A DNA stretch of 64,000 nt. It comes from Kiritimatiellaceae bacterium (GTDB lineage Bacteria > Verrucomicrobiota > Kiritimatiellia > Kiritimatiellales > Tichowtungiaceae). This document shows, piece after piece, positions 816 to 46,241 of this stretch. The translations under genes were made by a program, and so were the position numbers. Location: positions 186,001-250,000 of the forward strand of contig JABFQY010000001.1 in NCBI GenBank assembly GCA_013141415.1, given 5' to 3'. Position 1 is the first letter of the stretch; every line of letters starts with the position of its first letter. The notes beneath the pieces are model-generated. The model was not told the DNA's origin, made no database searches, and was given only the letters and a program-made list of their open reading frames with translations.

Positions 816-901
816 AATGCGGCGCAGTGTACAGAACCAGCCCGTGGAAATGAAACAGGAAAACCGGATTTTAAAAATCGGCAGGTTCAGCCCGCAGAAT
901 G

Positions 902-990
902 CACAGAGAAACACAGAAGCTAAAGGCGCGGAGGCGCAAAACGGTTCCAATGACTGGACAACTCAGCGACTTTGCGGCTTGGCGAGAGAG
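902..990. repeat. Degenerate CGCAAAGGCGC-type dispersed repeat
   Basis: The spacer between the DUF1015 gene and the pseudouridine synthase holds GGCGCGGAGGCGCAAAAC and, about 45 bases on, CTTTGCGGCTTGGCG. The words resemble those flanking the GxxExxY gene at 44.2-44.7 kb (AACGCAAAGGCGCAAAG) and CTTTGCGTCTTAGCGG near 36.34 kb. No gene is seen here. The relationship is by eye and the copy is degenerate. Confidence 0.4.
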
Positions 991-3966: not shown

Positions 3967-3984
3967 AAAAATTCCTTTTTCAAC

Positions 3985-4032
3985 GTAGGACAGGCTTCCA
4001 GCCTGTCGGGACAGGCAGGATGCCTGTCCTAC
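3985..4032. repeat. Palindromic element, GTAGGACAGG...CCTGTCCTAC, between plsY and gpsA
   Basis: The ends GTAGGACAGGC and GCCTGTCCTAC pair, and two inner hairpins (ACAGGC/GCCTGT twice) are nested inside. It fills most of the plsY-gpsA gap. A closely similar element lies at 39564-39611. It could form an RNA structure between the two cistrons. Confidence 0.85.
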
Positions 4033-4037
4033 ATTAT

Positions 4038-11259: not shown

Positions 11260-13608
11260 TTGAATAAACAACCTCCAGAACTTTTAGCACCCGCCGGAAC
11301 GCCGGAAGCGGCGTGGGCCGCGCTGGCCTACGGCGCGGATGCCGTTTACGCCGGACTGCCGCGCTTTTCCGCCCGCGCCGAAGCCGGTAATTTTTCCGCC
11401 GAAGCGCTCGACGAGCTGATCGGCTACGCGCACCACCTCGGCCGCCGCGTTTACATCACCTTCAACACACTGGTTCAGCAACGCGAACTGGATGCGGCGC
11501 TCGAAACGCTCGCGCTCATCCGCGATCTGAACGCTGACGGCGTGATCGTTCAGGACATGGGCGTCGTGCGTCTGGCGCAGAAAAACTTTCCGGAACTCCG
11601 TCTTCACGCCAGCACACAGCTGGCAGTTCATAATCTCGAAGGAGCCAAACAGCTCGCGTCGCTCGGTTTCAAGCGTGTCGTGCTGGCGCGCGAGCTGAGC
11701 CTGAAAGAAATCGTGCACATCAGCCTCCACTGCGGCATCGAAACCGAAACGTTCATCCACGGTGCGCTGTGTTATTCCTACAGCGGGCTTTGCCTTTTCT
11801 CGTCGCACCTGCTGGGCCGTAGCGGCAACCGCGGACGTTGCGCCTACTGTTGTCGCCAGCCGTTCCGTGACGGCGACGGCAAAGAAACCCTGCCGTTTTC
11901 AATGAAAGATTTCTCTGCCGCTGAACATCTGCCGGAACTTCTCAATGCCGGAGTCGCCTCGCTCAAAATCGAAGGGCGCATGAAAAGTCCGCTCTATGTC
12001 GCCGCCGTCACCGACTTCTATCGCAAGGCACTGGCGGGCGACTCTGCCGACTCCGCGCAGCGGCTGGCGGACATTCAGACGATTTTCGGCAGACCTTCCA
12101 CCGAACTGTATTTAAAAAATTCTGAAACCAGTCCGGTCGATCCGGTCAACGACGGACATCGCGGCGCACTGATCGGAACCGTTAAGGCCGTCGCCGGGCC
12201 GTGGCTGATTCTGCACAGCAATCGCGCATTGCAGAAACACGACGGCTTGAAATTTGAAAACGCATTCGGCTTTGCCGCCGATGAAATGCGGCTGGCGAGC
12301 GATCCGGAATCCAAGCGCCGGTTTGAACTTCCGGCGGATGCGGAGATCGCGCTCAAACTTCCGGCCGATGCACCGCGACTCGAAAAAGGCGCGCCGGTTT
12401 ACTGCTCCTATTCTCAGGTGGTGCGTCAGCGCTACGAATTTACTGCCCCGCGCCCCGGACAGTTCCGTCAGCGGAAGCCGGTGAACATTTACGTTTCCCA
12501 ATCTTCGGAAAACGTGAAGTTTGTTGCGTCAGCGGACGGCGTGCAGTCTGAACTGGTTTTGCCCGGCCCGTTCGAAGCGGCGAAAAATCCGGAGAAAGCT
12601 GCGGCCACAATTCGTCAGTGTTTTGAAAAACTCGGCGACACCGACTGTAAACTTGGCGAACTGACGCTGGAAGGCGCGCCGGTTTTTATTCCGGTGTCCG
12701 TTTTAAACGATGCCCGCCGCCGGTTGATTTCAGATTTTTCCAATCTCTGGGAAAATAATTGTAGGGCGGGATCCGTGATCCCGCCGGTTTCCGAGGTCAC
12801 GGACCTCGGCTACAAACAGGAGCCGGTTGCTTGGGCAGTGAAGTCACGGGTCTTTCAACCGCTGGAAAACATCGACGAATTCGTACTGGAAATTGATCCG
12901 GCGCGGACGGAAGAGATCGAAAAGGCGCTGTCGTTTTATGGCGATAAACTTCGGCTGGCTCTGCCGGTGATTATTCGCGAAGAAGACGTTGCGGCATTCC
13001 GTAAACTGATTGCGGCATTGCCGGATCAGCAAAAGTGGGAAGCGGCCAATGTCGGCGGACTTAATCTGCTGCGCCGGGTGGGGTCACCCGGCCTACAGAA
13101 GATTGGTGTAGGCCCGCTGACCTCAGCGGGCGATATTGAATATGACATCACCACCGACTGGCCGCTCTATACGCTCAATACACAAGCCGCTTTGCAGTGG
13201 CGCGAGCAGGGCGTTCAGCAGTTTGTGCTTTCACCGGAAGACGACGCCAAAAATCTTTTTGCGCTGATCGAACAGCTCGGAGGCGCGGCGGTTGTTCCGG
13301 TTTATCAGCATACGCCGCTGATGATTTCCGCCACGCGTCCGGCGGCGTCCGGCGATGAATTAACCGACCGTTCACGGCGGAATTTCCGCGTCGAACCGAA
13401 CGGACGGCAGTTTGTGTTTCTCAACGAGACACCGTTTTCGCTGACCGGTCATCTGGATGAACTGAAAGCCAAAGGCGCGCGCCGCTTCCGCATCGATCTG
13501 TCGTATGGAATCAGTTCGTCGGACGAAGTTGCCGACATCGTCCGACGCATTACCTCCTGCTCCGCCGTTCCCGGCCACGCCGGAAACTTTGCCCGCGGGC
13601 TTCAGTGA
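11260..13608 (+). CDS. U32 family peptidase (RlhA/YegQ-like) with two in-frame repeat insertions
   Basis: A 782-residue cytosolic protein. The N-terminal half carries PPELLAPAGTPEAAWAALAYGADAVYAG and the U32 signature around residues 166-185 (ETFIHGALCYSYSGLC), followed by the GNRGRCAYCCR cysteines thought to hold an iron-sulfur cluster. The middle holds a DUF3656-like region. U32 members include RlhA, which hydroxylates 23S rRNA, so 'peptidase' is partly historical. It starts with TTG at 11260; no better ATG lies nearby and the family motif begins at once. Two palindromic repeats (12761-12813 and 13072-13132) are translated in frame in the C-terminal half. The 3' end overlaps the convergent DUF1294 gene by seven bases. 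Confidence 0.92.
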   Translation: MNKQPPELLAPAGTPEAAWAALAYGADAVYAGLPRFSARAEAGNFSAEALDELIGYAHHLGRRVYITFNTLVQQRELDAALETLALIRDLNADGVIVQDMGVVRLAQKNFPELRLHASTQLAVHNLEGAKQLASLGFKRVVLARELSLKEIVHISLHCGIETETFIHGALCYSYSGLCLFSSHLLGRSGNRGRCAYCCRQPFRDGDGKETLPFSMKDFSAAEHLPELLNAGVASLKIEGRMKSPLYVAAVTDFYRKALAGDSADSAQRLADIQTIFGRPSTELYLKNSETSPVDPVNDGHRGALIGTVKAVAGPWLILHSNRALQKHDGLKFENAFGFAADEMRLASDPESKRRFELPADAEIALKLPADAPRLEKGAPVYCSYSQVVRQRYEFTAPRPGQFRQRKPVNIYVSQSSENVKFVASADGVQSELVLPGPFEAAKNPEKAAATIRQCFEKLGDTDCKLGELTLEGAPVFIPVSVLNDARRRLISDFSNLWENNCRAGSVIPPVSEVTDLGYKQEPVAWAVKSRVFQPLENIDEFVLEIDPARTEEIEKALSFYGDKLRLALPVIIREEDVAAFRKLIAALPDQQKWEAANVGGLNLLRRVGSPGLQKIGVGPLTSAGDIEYDITTDWPLYTLNTQAALQWREQGVQQFVLSPEDDAKNLFALIEQLGGAAVVPVYQHTPLMISATRPAASGDELTDRSRRNFRVEPNGRQFVFLNETPFSLTGHLDELKAKGARRFRIDLSYGISSSDEVADIVRRITSCSAVPGHAGNFARGLQ
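12761..12813. repeat. Palindromic element GTAG...CTAC with two hairpins, in frame inside U32 gene
   Basis: Ends GTAG and CTAC enclose GGCGGGATC/GATCCCGCC with a three-base loop and CCGAGGTC/GACCTCGG with a three-base loop. It encodes CRAGSVIPPVSEVTDLGY inside the U32 peptidase. The layout matches the intergenic elements at 3985 and 39564. Confidence 0.88.
13072..13132. repeat. Three-arm palindromic element, copy A2, in frame inside U32 gene
   Basis: Same arms as copy A1 (GCCGGGTG/CACCCGGC, CCTACA/TGTAGG, CCCGCTGA/TCAGCGGG). Here the host gene is on the plus strand, so the element is read in the opposite direction from copies A1 and A3 and encodes RVGSPGLQKIGVGPLTSAGD. It is open in both reading directions used. 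Confidence 0.9.
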
Positions 13609-20489: not shown

Positions 20490-21203
20490 TTAGACCGTCG
20501 GCCAGTGATCGGGATACGGTGCTTCGATAACGATCTCCGCTTTGCTGACCGGATGAATCACCGTCAACCGCGCATGGTGCAAGGCAATCGCACCACAGGC
20601 CAGCTTTACTTTTGAGCCGTACTTTTCGTCGCCGACAATCGGACAGCCGACCGCGGCGAGCTGCGCACGGATCTGATGGTAGCGCCCGGTGTGCAGTTGA
20701 ATTTCCAGTAGCGTATGTTTGTCGCCGGGTGAGGTCACCCGGCCTACAGGTGCGGAATGGTTTGTAGGCCCGCTGCCCTCAGCGGGCGTAATAACCCGAT
20801 AATCCAGCAGACACTCTTTCGCCTCGGGATCGCCTTCCTTCGCCACTTCGGCGCGGTAATCGTCGTGAATCAGAAAATGACGCAGCGAACCTTCGTTCTG
20901 CGGCGGCGCGCCGGAAACGACCGCATGGTAGATTTTGGTGAAGCGGTGGGCGCGCATATCGGCGTTCAGACGCGACAGCGCTTTATCGGTGCAGGCGAAC
21001 AGAACGATGCCGCTCACGTCCTTGTCGAGCCGGTGAACGGCGTGCAGGAACACATTGCCCGGCTTGCCTTTGACTTCCTTGATGTATGCTTTCGCGCGGT
21101 CTTCGAGATTGTCCTTATCCGTTCCGCTCGGCTGCGTCAGCAAGCCCGCCGGTTTATTCACCGCCAGCAGTTGGTTGTCGTGATAAAGCACATCAAGAGT
21201 CAT
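20490..21203 (-). CDS. RluA-family pseudouridine synthase with in-frame repeat
   Basis: A 237-residue single-domain enzyme. HAVHRLDKDVSGIVLFA carries the catalytic aspartate, and LHTGRYHQIRAQLAAVG and GDEKYGS follow in the order usual for RluA-type enzymes that modify rRNA or tRNA uridines. Between DYRVITPA and HTLLEIQLHTGR, where relatives have a short beta-hairpin turn, the peptide EGSGPTNHSAPVGRVTSPGD is encoded by palindromic element A3. It converges on the ferredoxin gene, five bases away, and is followed on its own 5' side by VF530. Target position in RNA is unknown. Confidence 0.92.
   Translation of the reverse strand: MTLDVLYHDNQLLAVNKPAGLLTQPSGTDKDNLEDRAKAYIKEVKGKPGNVFLHAVHRLDKDVSGIVLFACTDKALSRLNADMRAHRFTKIYHAVVSGAPPQNEGSLRHFLIHDDYRAEVAKEGDPEAKECLLDYRVITPAEGSGPTNHSAPVGRVTSPGDKHTLLEIQLHTGRYHQIRAQLAAVGCPIVGDEKYGSKVKLACGAIALHHARLTVIHPVSKAEIVIEAPYPDHWPTV
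20723..20788. repeat. Three-arm palindromic element, copy A3, in frame inside RluA-type gene
   Basis: Same three arms as copies A1 and A2, with a longer centre loop (CCTACA, 13 bases, TGTAGG). It is read on the minus strand in the same frame as copy A1, so both RluA proteins contain EGSGPTN...VGRV. Confidence 0.92.
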
Positions 21204-36277: not shown

Positions 36278-36360
36278 AAGGGTCCGTCCCATAATCTAGT
36301 AATTTTTGGATTCGGTTTCCAAGGTTCGGAAAAATTCTTTGCGTCTTAGCGGTCAAAAAT

Positions 36361-38796: not shown

Positions 38797-39567
38797 ATGA
38801 AAACGATCATCTACTGGTTCTCGGGAACGGGAAATTCGCTGGCGGTTGCCAAAGAGCTGGCGAAACAGTGCGGCGATGCCGAGCTGATTCCGGTTGCCCG
38901 CGCCATCAGAAATCCGCCGCCGTCCGCCGGGCGCATCGGACTGGTTTTCCCTGTGTACGCATTCTGTCCGCCCGCGCTGGTGGCGCGTTTTGTCGCAAAA
39001 CTCAACGCCTCACCGGATTCGTATATTTTCTCCGTCATCACCTATGCGGGCAGTCCGGGCGGAACAATCTCTGTTTTACAGCGTCTGATGAAAAAGCGCG
39101 GTCTTGATCTGTCCGCCAGTTGGGGCGTTAAGATGCCGGAAAACTATCCACCGTTTGGCGGCGCGCCCGCACCGGAAAAACAGCAGACGGTCAACGCCGC
39201 TGCGGCTGAACGGATTAATAAAATTGCCGCCGAGATTCAGCAGTCGCCGCGCGGACGGCATGAAAAAATCAAGACGGTTTGGAAGATCGTCAGCCGGATG
39301 ATGTTTCCTGTATTCCAAAAGAGGGCGGCGCGCGCCGACCGCTCTTTCCGTGCGGACAAGAAATGCAACGGGTGCTGTCTTTGCACTCGGGTATGTCCGG
39401 TGAATAACGTGGCGATGGTTGATGGCCGTCCGTCATGGATGGGACACTGCGAGCAGTGCTACGCCTGTTTCCACTGGTGCCCGCAGAAGGCGGTACAGTA
39501 CGGCCGCTCTGAAAAGCAGCACCGCTATCATCATCCGGCGGTTTCGTTGTCTGATTTCGAAATGTAG
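38797..39567 (+). CDS. EFR1-type flavodoxin/ferredoxin fusion protein
   Basis: A 256-residue cytosolic redox protein. The N-terminal flavodoxin-like domain starts KTIIYWFSGTGNSLAVAKELA (FMN phosphate loop) and the C-terminal part carries two [4Fe-4S] motifs, CNGCCLCTRVCPVNNV and CEQCYACFHWCPQKAV. This EF-ferredoxin (EFR1) architecture is frequent in anaerobes and thought to shuttle electrons. The start at 38797 follows a GGGGGAG site; an in-frame ATG at 38785 is possible. Its stop codon lies inside the palindromic element at 39564-39611. Confidence 0.9.
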   Translation: MKTIIYWFSGTGNSLAVAKELAKQCGDAELIPVARAIRNPPPSAGRIGLVFPVYAFCPPALVARFVAKLNASPDSYIFSVITYAGSPGGTISVLQRLMKKRGLDLSASWGVKMPENYPPFGGAPAPEKQQTVNAAAAERINKIAAEIQQSPRGRHEKIKTVWKIVSRMMFPVFQKRAARADRSFRADKKCNGCCLCTRVCPVNNVAMVDGRPSWMGHCEQCYACFHWCPQKAVQYGRSEKQHRYHHPAVSLSDFEM

Positions 39568-39611
39568 GACAGCCATCCTGGCTGTCTGGACAGGCTGGAA
39601 GCCCGTCCTAC
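39564..39611. repeat. Palindromic element GTAGGACAG...CGTCCTAC at the end of the EFR1 gene
   Basis: Ends GTAGGAC/GTCCTAC enclose ACAGCCATCCTGGCTGT and a second partial hairpin. It supplies the TAG stop codon of the EFR1 gene and fills the gap to the convergent radical SAM gene. Closest relative in the window is 3985-4032. Confidence 0.85.
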
Positions 39612-39612
39612 T

Positions 39613-40848
39613 TTATTTTTTCGGAGGAATCATGGCCATGATATCCGAGGCGGGCCGCTTGTCCCGGATCAGTTGCGCCATGGTACGCATGTACGGATCA
39701 ATGTGCGGCAGGAACATTTTGTAGCCTTCGCACAGCCAGTTTAGGCCCGGTTCGCCGTCCGGTGTTTTGATGAAACGGTGTTTCGGACATTCGCCGTGGC
39801 AGGCAAAGAAAAAATTGCACTGACGGCAGTACCCCGGAAGCTTATCGAATTTGTCGCTGCCGAACTGCCGCTGTTTTTCCGAGGCGGCCATTTCCGTCAT
39901 TGGTGTTTCCAGAATATTGCCGAGACGGTATTCCGGATAAACGAAATGGTCGCAGGCGTAGATGTCGCCGTTGTGTTCGATAATCATCGCGCTACCGCAC
40001 TTTTCGGCAAAGACGCACAGCGGCGGCGGCATACCCATCCAGGCATTCAGCATGACATCGCATATCTGCACGAAGACGTTGCCGACATCGTGCCGCACCC
40101 ACTCATCGAAAATATCGATCAGGAACTGGCCGTACTGTTTAGGCTGAACCGTCCACGGCATCACGCGGTCGTCGGTATCGTCGGCGGCTAGATCCGGCGG
40201 CATGGCGAGTTTGAGGCCGAGCCGTGCGGCGGCATCGTCGGGCTTGCGCTCAATGATCGGAATGAATTGGAGGAACGTGCTGCCGGTGCTTTTCAGGAAG
40301 TCATAAATTTCCAGCGCATACGGCGCGCTCTGGCGGGTGACACAGGTAAGTGTGTTGAAATCCACCCGGTGAGATTTCATCAGCTTGAGCGATTTCATCA
40401 CCCGGTCAAAGGTCGGCTGGCCGCCGCGGTAAACGCGGAATTTGTCATGGATGTGGCGCGGGCCGTCGAGGCTCAGCCCGATCAGAAACTTTTCTTTCGC
40501 CAGAAACTTGCACCAGTCGTTGTCGAGCAGTGTACCGTTGGTCTGAAAAGCGTTCAGAACCGGGCGCCCGGCGGAATATTTTTTCTGGAGCTGGACGGCC
40601 TTCTGGAAAAACTCCAGACCCATCAGTGTCGGCTCGCCGCCCTGCCAGGCAAAAAGAATTTCCGGCGTATTCTGCGACTCACAGTATTGCTTGGTATAGG
40701 CCTCAAGCACCTCGTCGTTCATCCGGTGGATTTTCTGTTCCTTAAAGAGAACCTCTTTTTCCAGATAGAAACAGTACTGGCAGGCCAGATTGCAATCCGG
40801 CCCGGCAGGCTTAGCCATCAGGTGAAACGGTGTTTTCTTTGGAATCAT
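39613..40848 (-). CDS. Anaerobic sulfatase-maturating radical SAM enzyme
   Basis: A 411-residue radical SAM/SPASM enzyme. The cluster motif CNLACQYC (Cys 19, 23, 26) is followed by YLEKEVLF, the AWQGGEPTLMG and QTNGTLL segments, and a C-terminal SPASM region with cysteines in CVFAEKCGSAMI, YACDHFVYPEYRLGNI and YCRQCNFFFACHGECPKHR. This is the anSME pattern: conversion of an active-site Cys or Ser of sulfatases to formylglycine without oxygen. A cysteine-type sulfatase lies in this window at 61137. The gene is separated from carB by a palindromic element. Confidence 0.95.
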   Translation of the reverse strand: MIPKKTPFHLMAKPAGPDCNLACQYCFYLEKEVLFKEQKIHRMNDEVLEAYTKQYCESQNTPEILFAWQGGEPTLMGLEFFQKAVQLQKKYSAGRPVLNAFQTNGTLLDNDWCKFLAKEKFLIGLSLDGPRHIHDKFRVYRGGQPTFDRVMKSLKLMKSHRVDFNTLTCVTRQSAPYALEIYDFLKSTGSTFLQFIPIIERKPDDAAARLGLKLAMPPDLAADDTDDRVMPWTVQPKQYGQFLIDIFDEWVRHDVGNVFVQICDVMLNAWMGMPPPLCVFAEKCGSAMIIEHNGDIYACDHFVYPEYRLGNILETPMTEMAASEKQRQFGSDKFDKLPGYCRQCNFFFACHGECPKHRFIKTPDGEPGLNWLCEGYKMFLPHIDPYMRTMAQLIRDKRPASDIMAMIPPKK

Positions 40849-40999: not shown

Positions 41000-44218
<3,219 letters not shown>

Positions 44219-44231
44219 ATGTCGGATCCTC

Positions 44232-44689
44232 AACGCAAAGGCGCAAAGCGCGCCGAGTTTCGCAAAGTTCAATTAAAGGTTATTTACAATTCGTGTAATT
44301 CCGTTTTTCAGTAAAGGTTCATGAAAGTTAATCAGCAGTCCCAGTTTTATGCCGCTTAGGCGAAGGTATGTCAGAGTTTGAGATTTATCAATCGGAGAGA
44401 CTGTTTCGCGGGCTTTGATTTCAATAACCACTTTTCCGTCAACCAGCAGATCAATCCGGTAATCTGTTTTCAGCACTTTGTTTTTATAATTCAACGGACG
44501 GTACTTTTGTCGCTCATAGGAAATTCCCCGCAATTCCAGCTCATAGCAAAGAGCTTCCTCATAGGCGCTTTCCAAAAGGCCGGAACCCAGCACCCGATGG
44601 ACTTCGATTGCTGCTCCGATAATCTCTTTAGAAAGTTCATTCTCTGTCATCTTCTCAGCGATCCTTGGCACCCTCTGCGTCTTTGCGTT
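44232..44689. mobile_element. Inverted-repeat-bounded cassette carrying a GxxExxY gene
   Basis: AACGCAAAGGCGCAAAG (44232-44248) and CTCTGCGTCTTTGCGTT (44673-44689) are inverted repeats matching at 15 of 17 positions. They bound a single gene and lie immediately between the guaA stop (44694) and the carB start (44218). The layout looks like a small inserted unit, though no transposase is present and no target duplication was identified. Confidence 0.6.
44273..44650 (-). CDS. GxxExxY family protein
   Basis: A 125-residue protein of the GxxExxY group (PDDEXK_3-like). The naming motif is GLLESAYEEAL after AIEVHRVLGSG, and the nuclease-like core DYRIDLLVDGKVVIEIKARE has the D-x(n)-E-x-K pattern of PD-(D/E)XK folds. 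Family members are small, occur in many copies, and are of unknown function. The start at 44650 begins MTENELSKEI. A longer in-frame start would prepend NAKTQR, which translates the flanking repeat; the same prefix is common in database copies, by recollection. It interrupts the guaA-carB order. Confidence 0.88.
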   Translation of the reverse strand: MTENELSKEIIGAAIEVHRVLGSGLLESAYEEALCYELELRGISYERQKYRPLNYKNKVLKTDYRIDLLVDGKVVIEIKARETVSPIDKSQTLTYLRLSGIKLGLLINFHEPLLKNGITRIVNNL

Positions 44690-44693
44690 GAAA

Positions 44694-46241
44694 TTATTCC
44701 CATTCAATCGTTGAAGGCGGTTTGGAAGAAATGTCGTAGACAACGCGGTTGACGCCTTTGACTTCGTTGATGATGCGGTTGGAAATGCTGTCGAGCACTT
44801 CGTACGGCAGTTTGAACCAGTCGGCGGTCATGCCGTCGAGACTTTGCACGGCGCGCACGGCGACGACGTTTTCGTAGGTGCGGTCGTCGCCCATGACGCC
44901 GACGGTCTGGATCGGAAGCAGTACGGCGAAGTATTGCCAGACATCGAGGTGGTTCGGCATTTTTAAAATTTCTTCGCGGACGCGCAGGTCGGCGAGTTGG
45001 AGCAGGTCAACGCGGTCGCGGGTGATGTCGCCGAGAATGCGCACGGCCAGACCGGGACCGGGGAAAGGCTGGCGATCGACAACATAGCTCGGCAGTCCAA
45101 GTTCGCGGCCGACGGCGCGTACTTCGTCTTTGAAAAGTTCGCGTAGCGGTTCAATGAGATCAAATTTTAGATCGGCGGGCAGTCCGCCGACGTTATGATG
45201 GCTCTTAATCGTGGCTGAAGGTCCGCCGATCGGCGAAACGCTTTCGATGACGTCGGGATAAAGTGTGCCCTGCGCGAGGTATTTAACCTTGCCGCTCAGG
45301 GTGCGTGCTTTTTCGGCGAAGACATCAATGAAGGTTTTGCCGATGATCTTGCGCTTTTTCTCCGGGTCGCTGACGCCAGCCAGTGCGTCGAGGAAAATAT
45401 CCTGTGAGTGGGCAGTGTGCAGATCGATGCCGAAGGCGTTACCGAAAAGTTCTTCGACTTCGCGGGCTTCGTTGTAGCGGAGCAGGCCGTTGTCCACGAA
45501 GACGCAGTGAAGTTGCGGGCCGATTGCTTTATGAAGCAGGGCGGCCACGACAGAAGAATCGACGCCGCCGCTTAGTCCGAGCAGAACGTGGTCGGTGCCG
45601 ACTTTGGTGCGGATGGCCTGAATGTTGTCTTCAATAAATTTGCTCATCTTCCAGTCGCCGGAACATCCGCAGACTTTGTAGGCGAAGTTGCCGAGCATCT
45701 GCGCGCCCTGTGGCGTATGGACGACTTCCGGATGGAACTGCACGCCATAGATTTTCTTCGCAGAGTTCTGCATGGCGGCGTACGGGCAGTTGTCGGATTC
45801 GGCGACGGCTTCAAAACCGGCGGGTATCGCTTCGACTTTGTCGCCGTGGCTCATCCAGACCTGAAGGTTTTTGTCGAGACCCTGGAAAAGCGGACAGTCT
45901 TTGGTGACCTGCATCATCGCCTTGCCGTATTCGCGCTTCGTGCCGCGGTGCACTTTTCCGTCGAGTGTCTGGGCGGTGAGCTGCATGCCGTAGCAGATTC
46001 CGAGAATCGGAATGCCGAGTTCGAAAATTGCGGGATCGCACAGCGGCGAGCCTTGGTCGGTGACGCTGGCCGGTCCGCCGGAAAGAATGATGCCTTTCGG
46101 GGCGCGTTTGGCGAGGTCGGCGGCTTTGGTGTCAAAGCGGATGATTTCGCAATACACCTTCTGCTCGCGGATACGGCGGGCGATCAGCTGCGTCACCTGC
46201 GAGCCGTAATCTAAAATGGCAATCCATTCGCTATGTTTCAT
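44694..46241 (-). CDS. guaA: GMP synthase (glutamine-hydrolysing)
   Basis: A 515-residue cytosolic enzyme that aminates XMP to GMP. The N-terminal class I amidotransferase domain has [18 protein letters not shown], the nucleophile in GICYGMQL and the FHPEV histidine/glutamate site. The central ATP pyrophosphatase domain has [14 protein letters not shown]. The C-terminal dimerisation domain ends [10 protein letters not shown]. Its start overlaps the stop of carA (ATGA), so the two glutamine amidotransferase genes are translated together. Confidence 0.98.

Follow-up and report, generated by a model that had tools for sequence, protein, structure and literature searches.

The window analysed here, 64,000 nt in length, comprises bases 186001–250000 of contig 1 in an assembly of 2.22 Mb and seven contigs, whose closest named relatives are MAGs of the Kiritimatiellales. 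On its minus strand lie guaA (GMP synthase, 44694..46241) and, downstream, carB (carbamoyl-phosphate synthase large chain, 41000..44218), both named from sequence as members of established families. Between these operon neighbours, a GxxExxY gene of 125 aa occupies 44273..44650 on the same strand, with the ATG at 44650 as its likely start codon. The gene is bordered by two arms detected in an inverted-pair search: an upstream arm on the guaA side at 44658..44691 (minus strand, TCAACGCAAAGACGCAGAGGGTGCCAAGGATCGC) and a downstream arm on the carB side at 44230..44263 (plus strand, TCAACGCAAAGGCGCAAAGCGCGCCGAGTTTCGC). Together they form an inverted repeat whose 34-nt halves are 79% complementary and stand 394 nt apart, and the 17-nt inverted repeats reported in the preliminary description were located as cores inside these arms. 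The closeness of the repeats to the neighbouring genes, also noted there, was borne out, with 2 nt separating the unit from the guaA stop codon and 11 nt from the carB start codon. The latter interval (44219..44229, minus strand) is a leftover spacer with the Shine-Dalgarno-like GAGGA of carB. Arm, gene and arm thus make up a stretch of 462 bp (44230–44691).

The inverted-pair scan covered 1.62 of the 2.22 Mb of the genome. Within this portion, a score of at least 18 was reached by 17 inverted pairs whose halves lay 250–600 nt apart, compared with 0 among mirror-repeat controls; the guaA/carB pair scored 18.6. Long gene-flanking inverted pairs in the genome were chiefly RAYT/Y1 genes with REPs, five high-scoring GxxExxY places, IVS-type genes (the 23S rRNA intervening-sequence family), and REP pairs at ordinary genes. 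REP pairs of the GTAGGACAGGCTTCCAGCCTGTC and GTAGGCCCGCTGCCCTCAGCGGGCG types were also observed in the window (3982–4035 and 39561–39614; 2501–2557, 13072–13132 and 20723–20788), and these are of the kind seen around the RAYT genes of the genome.

The identity of the gene was confirmed by profile searches, with 144 bits for TIGR04256 and 135 bits for PF13366 against curated cut-offs of 35 and 22 bits, respectively. In a Pfam search up to E 1, PF13366 was the sole match, and no match to the Y1/HUH transposase family (PF01797) was obtained. The motif residues are E27, D67, E77-x-K79 and Q91xxxY95; in 179 proteins, the E, D and K were conserved at 100% and the E of ExK at 94%, and QxxxY was nearly always kept. 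An AlphaFold2 model (pLDDT 94) matched PD-(D/E)XK folds, the nearest solved structure being Cas4 SSO0001 (Foldseek 2e-4, Z 9.3), and no solved structure related by sequence was found in the PDB. Profiles, motif and model together predict a DNA-processing PD-(D/E)XK nuclease of the Cas4/RecB-like type. In an earlier paper (PMC8934634), two pipelines differed over a gene next to a CRISPR-associated reverse transcriptase, one naming it GxxExxY and the other cas4; this double call fits the Cas4-like fold found here. A phage origin was rejected, with no match in 50,697 phage records and only weak matches in PHROGs, as was membership in an anti-phage defence family, for which PADLOC gave no match. 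The NAKTQR-like prefix of database copies mentioned in the preliminary description does emerge when a longer ORF is read through the arm. However, the reading frame is open through the arm in 64 of 141 loci, which is about the chance level, and the prefix is therefore no conserved part of the protein.

The guaA ends from thirty relatives were compared. Sites with guaA directly beside carB, whose existence had been raised earlier as a question, were found in five loci (L156, L159, L160, L170 and L176), with carB beginning 16–33 nt after guaA. The leftover spacer of the window is kept in such empty sites, as illustrated by TAATTTGAGGAAACCA-ATG (L159). Compared with these empty sites, the filled site, TAATTTC[AACGC...GCGTT]GAGGA, revealed no visible loss or duplication of bases. 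Five further loci (L153, L154, L168, L038 and L039) carried a GxxExxY gene with the same AACGCAAAG arms in the spacer, with the proviso that L039 and L038 may represent the same assemblies as L154 and L153; the window itself is L148. Damaged copies were present at this place in L165 (decayed) and L053 (frameshifted), and the carB-side arm recurred at the orthologous place in L038, L039, L053, L153, L154 and L168. Only a bare hairpin of arm-type words was left in the spacer of L162, L167 and L171. In other relatives, the spacer was occupied several times by a gene of the IVS family (PF05635/TIGR02436), whose arms differ and consist of GAAACYTGAAAC or ATGAAAG words. A nucleotidyltransferase gene (PF01909) and a HepT-like gene (PF01934), gene types known from MNT/HEPN toxin-antitoxin pairs and here with no obvious arms, were observed in the spacer of L163 and L172.

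In the guaA tree, these spacer states were intermingled among sister genomes. DNA identity between the GxxExxY copies at guaA–carB was 68–81%, as compared with 76–84% for guaA; synonymous changes were saturated and non-synonymous ones few, indicating strong purifying selection. Divergence in step with guaA points to an old, selected insertion rather than a recent arrival. Judged from these sequences, the copy at guaA/carB is an old insertion that has been kept by selection and often lost or replaced in relatives, and its descent looks mostly vertical. A fresh insertion was ruled out by the guaA-paced divergence together with the sharing of the copy by at least 8 loci. As to conserved synteny, which the preliminary description had set against mobility, the copy is common to these loci, which belong to two families, and the site is empty or refilled in other relatives. 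Sequence comparison supports well the view that arm, gene and arm constitute one compact transferable unit, cleanly seated in the guaA–carB operon spacer.

Terminal repeats were also evident at GxxExxY loci elsewhere, being present in most genomes examined, as had been anticipated. Inverted arms better than 100 shuffles were detected at 27 of 29 Kiritimatiellota GxxExxY loci and at 21 of 29 IVS-type loci. Across phyla, in a sample that included Planctomycetota, Bacteroidota, Acidobacteriota, Methanophagales archaea and others, arms were found at 50 of 78 GxxExxY loci, compared with 5 of 150 control ORFs. Loci without flanking repeats, which the preliminary description had regarded as contrary evidence, do occur, accounting for about a third of the all-phyla sample when significant arms are counted; most loci have them.

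Gene and arms tended to be shared together. Among pairs of loci at non-homologous places, the proportion sharing both arms decreased from 88% through 55%, 19% and 10% to 2% as protein identity dropped from at least 90% to 50–60%, and no such pair was found below that range (197 distinct loci). In printed alignments of non-homologous-place pairs, homology ended at or near the outer arm edge. The homology end lay at a median of 0 nt from the arm edge on the upstream side and +6 nt on the downstream side, the offsets being widely scattered (27 pairs), and it fell no more than 8 nt from that edge in only 54% of upstream and 35% of downstream cases. Empty sites were also encountered between fabD and fabG in Sphingomonas, a spacer that holds a GxxExxY unit in Sphingomonas parapaucimobilis YK209, and at a Prevotella site the two genes were adjacent in 24 of 29 relatives, none of which carried the element.

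In 141 of 186 loci (76%), the unit pointed in the same direction as the genes on either side, compared with 56% of control genes. The unit began 0–4 nt past a stop trinucleotide in 55 of 141 loci, and the next ATG followed within 20 nt in 91 of 141. The target duplications envisaged in the preliminary description proved to be absent in general: with exact and mismatch-tolerant scoring, a score of at least 8 was reached in 3 of 141 loci, and the overall distribution resembled that of swapped controls. Direct repeats of 8–13 nt were seen in about three loci, some of them being parts of tandem arms. A second crowded site was observed in relatives (L135, L282, L236 and L230), where units with TCTCGCAAAG-like arms stand directly before a gene beginning ATGATTTTGGTCATCGAT or similar; this gene (MILVID) is probably trpG/pabA.

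The arms of GxxExxY loci are built from degenerate words, such as CACAGAGnn, CGCAAAGn and CACGGATnnn, and often start with AACCAC or AACGC. A period of 8–10 was found in 58 of 71 distinct GxxExxY arms, and a period of 7 in 16 of 18 IVS-type arms, the latter being a small sample from one phylum. The period of 7 fits the tandem heptamers known from the Coxiella IVS. When arm 3-mers were used to predict the cargo family, leave-one-out accuracy was 93% and 89%, as against about 0.6 and 0.5 with shuffled labels. By this sequence measure, arm type tracks gene family.

Arm-only copies exist for four of the five GxxExxY loci of the genome, while shuffled arms yielded practically none. The related words recognised earlier at 902–990 of the window belong to this class: the copy at 891..918 (plus strand, CCCGCAGAATGCACAGAGAAACACAGAA) agrees at 24 of 28 positions with the arm of L003, one of the genome's other GxxExxY loci, and more arm-like words stand at 962..984 (minus strand, CGCCAAGCCGCAAAGTCGCTGAG). 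The word noted near 36340 is likewise arm-like (36337..36351, minus strand, CGCTAAGACGCAAAG), but it stands alone, and a search for its partner arm found none. The 29-nt arm of L005 recurs at two places in the form of a free inverted pair (C1:167221–167304 and C1:429983–430066). L005/L007 itself (G000 contig 1, 424006–424887) encodes a 271-aa protein with two tandem GxxExxY-like domains between near-perfect 29-nt arms.

Across 97 genomes, arm words were absent from 13 of 21 genomes without GxxExxY and from 2 of 76 with it (Fisher 4e-9, not corrected for phylogeny). The rank correlation between arm words and GxxExxY was 0.35 (p 4e-4) after adjustment for RAYT, IVS-type genes and genome size, phylogeny being uncorrected here as well; IVS-type gene counts kept a correlation of 0.24 with arm words. 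Two relatives (G049 and G062) contained 24–37 arm words with no GxxExxY gene detected, for which loss of the gene, missing contigs or another mover are candidate readings.

Copies within the same genome were diverged, being at most 85% and mostly under 70% identical, and the nearest copies at other places sat in other genomes, with up to 92% identity. Units therefore move rarely, and often from one genome to another. Recent amplification within a single genome was rejected on the same identities, and no active transposition was caught among same-genome GxxExxY copies.

The reading we favour, with a probability of roughly 0.6, is that GxxExxY is a nuclease that operates together with dispersed terminal repeats of its own, in the manner of RAYT/REP. 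Each genome would retain a small number of diverged copies of a small PD-(D/E)XK nuclease gene, each bordered by its own inverted short-period repeats; the unit would only rarely settle at a new site, in many cases in a different genome, and arm-only copies, single or as hairpins, would spread through the genome. The protein would recognise and cut its own arms, as a DNA hairpin or duplex, and this would be how both units and arm-only copies spread. Comparative sequence analysis provides the unit boundaries, empty and filled sites, joint transfer of arms and gene, cargo-specific grammar, arm-only copies, the lack of general target duplication, and purifying selection; from these we infer that the GxxExxY protein acts on its own arms. 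The earlier suggestion of a unit that moves without its own transposase holds in so far as gene and arms go together as one unit. Its second half may be wrong, since the gene carried is predicted to encode a nuclease and the grammar of the repeats tracks the protein. More tentatively, and at somewhat less than even odds, GxxExxY may be the mobility enzyme of a self-directed element of ~460 bp across bacteria and archaea. Together with IVS-type four-helix-bundle genes, it would then represent one of two branches of a "small protein plus own short-period terminal repeats" design, of which the rRNA IVS is the described case.

A similar layout would arise if the unit were an IVS-like element acting at the RNA level, its arms forming a long transcript stem whose cutting by RNase III would let a gene reside harmlessly in the operon, with a selfish or neutral protein and incidental mobility. 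This is conceivable, and we rate it as rather improbable. Size and design resemble the Coxiella IVS, IVS-family genes (PF05635) occupy the same guaA–carB spacer, IVS-type arms have a period of 7, the arms of the unit pair at its ends when folded as RNA (−138 kcal/mol, z −2.6), and the excess of co-directional units in operons points the same way. On the other hand, G.U did not significantly exceed A.C mismatches on the sense strand (167:137, p 0.10), and arm-only DNA copies are found elsewhere in the genome. It is also unlikely that GxxExxY is simply cargo of other function in a non-autonomous passenger cassette (MITE-like, or a mobile insertion cassette) that depends in trans on an unrelated enzyme, e.g., a RAYT/Y1 transposase, for its movement. 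The genome does encode 11 Y1 transposases, its RAYT genes lie between REP pairs in the same layout, and differing cargo types share one operon spacer. Nevertheless, the RAYT REPs have other sequences and are built as hairpins, and both arm grammar and period track the cargo family, a pattern that one shared mover would not yield. RAYT counts showed no significant partial correlation with arm words (rho 0.13, p 0.20), as against 0.35 for GxxExxY.

Finally, the gene could have been inserted by chance, or through a target-site effect, into pre-existing intergenic repeats such as REP-like hairpin loops, the repeats being no part of a mobile unit. Standalone hairpins of the same words at guaA–carB (L167 and L171) and elsewhere in the genome would agree with this. 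Against it, related genes at unrelated places have their arms in common and lose homology close to the arm edge, arm type follows gene family, and empty spacers lack such a repeat. Arm sharing and homology edges already largely refute this explanation, which we regard as very improbable.

In the literature searched, which included few subscription journals, no prior description of the gene–arm system was found, and a full-text search for the arm repeat words gave unrelated matches only. Elements of the rRNA IVS and RAYT/REP kinds have been described before; a version with a PD-(D/E)XK nuclease and short-period arms in operon spacers, and its link to IVS-type genes through a shared spacer, were not found described there. 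The data suggest that GxxExxY units represent a type of mobile DNA that has drawn little attention and is present in many bacteria as well as some archaea. Many genomes have annotated GxxExxY and four-helix-bundle genes to which no function is assigned, and the words of period 8 to 10 around them take up intergenic space across many phyla; a single system of gene and words would account for both. If so, operon insertions of the ordinary kind would make the nature and spread of rRNA intervening sequences testable, and REP-like repeats could also arise by a second route that does not depend on HUH enzymes.

Among known systems, Cas4, lambda-exonuclease and RecB-type PD-(D/E)XK nucleases (4ic1, 3syy) share with GxxExxY the predicted fold and the E, D, ExK and QxxxY motif. 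GxxExxY differs in being a stand-alone protein of 125 aa, a size at which the extra Fe-S domain is not expected, and in having no adjoining CRISPR or recombination partner. MITEs and mobile insertion cassettes likewise consist of inverted repeats around cargo with no transposase of a known class, whereas GxxExxY units show no general target duplication and have cargo-specific ends; no parent insertion sequence with GxxExxY-type ends was found. The 23S IVS of Coxiella burnetii, with 428 nt, a 28-bp terminal stem and an S23p ORF preceded by tandem heptamers (PMC4990558), illustrates a further parallel. The 23S rRNA IVS (S23/IVP ORF, PF05635, TIGR02436) matches the unit in its length of ~430–460 nt, its single small ORF, its short tandem arm words and its terminal inverted repeats forming a stem of roughly 30 bp, and genes of the IVP family occupy the guaA–carB spacer with their own arms. 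The GxxExxY unit, in contrast, is located in a protein-coding operon rather than an rRNA helix loop, carries GxxExxY in place of S23, and has an arm period of 8–10 instead of 7.

The RAYT/REP system (REPIN; IS200/IS605-like Y1 transposases; PMC2817692, PMC3116915) provides the model for the favoured reading. For GxxExxY, cutting and movement are putative, and the predicted enzyme is a Cas4-like PD-(D/E)XK nuclease rather than an HUH/Y1 transposase. The GxxExxY arms consist of degenerate words of period 8–10, have no GTAG head and are not each palindromic, and the units are co-directional in operon spacers. Common to both are a small enzyme gene between two inverted repeats of its own, many enzyme-free repeats that stand singly or in inverted pairs, a low gene copy number in each genome, the absence of sizeable target duplication, and a repeat type tied to the enzyme.
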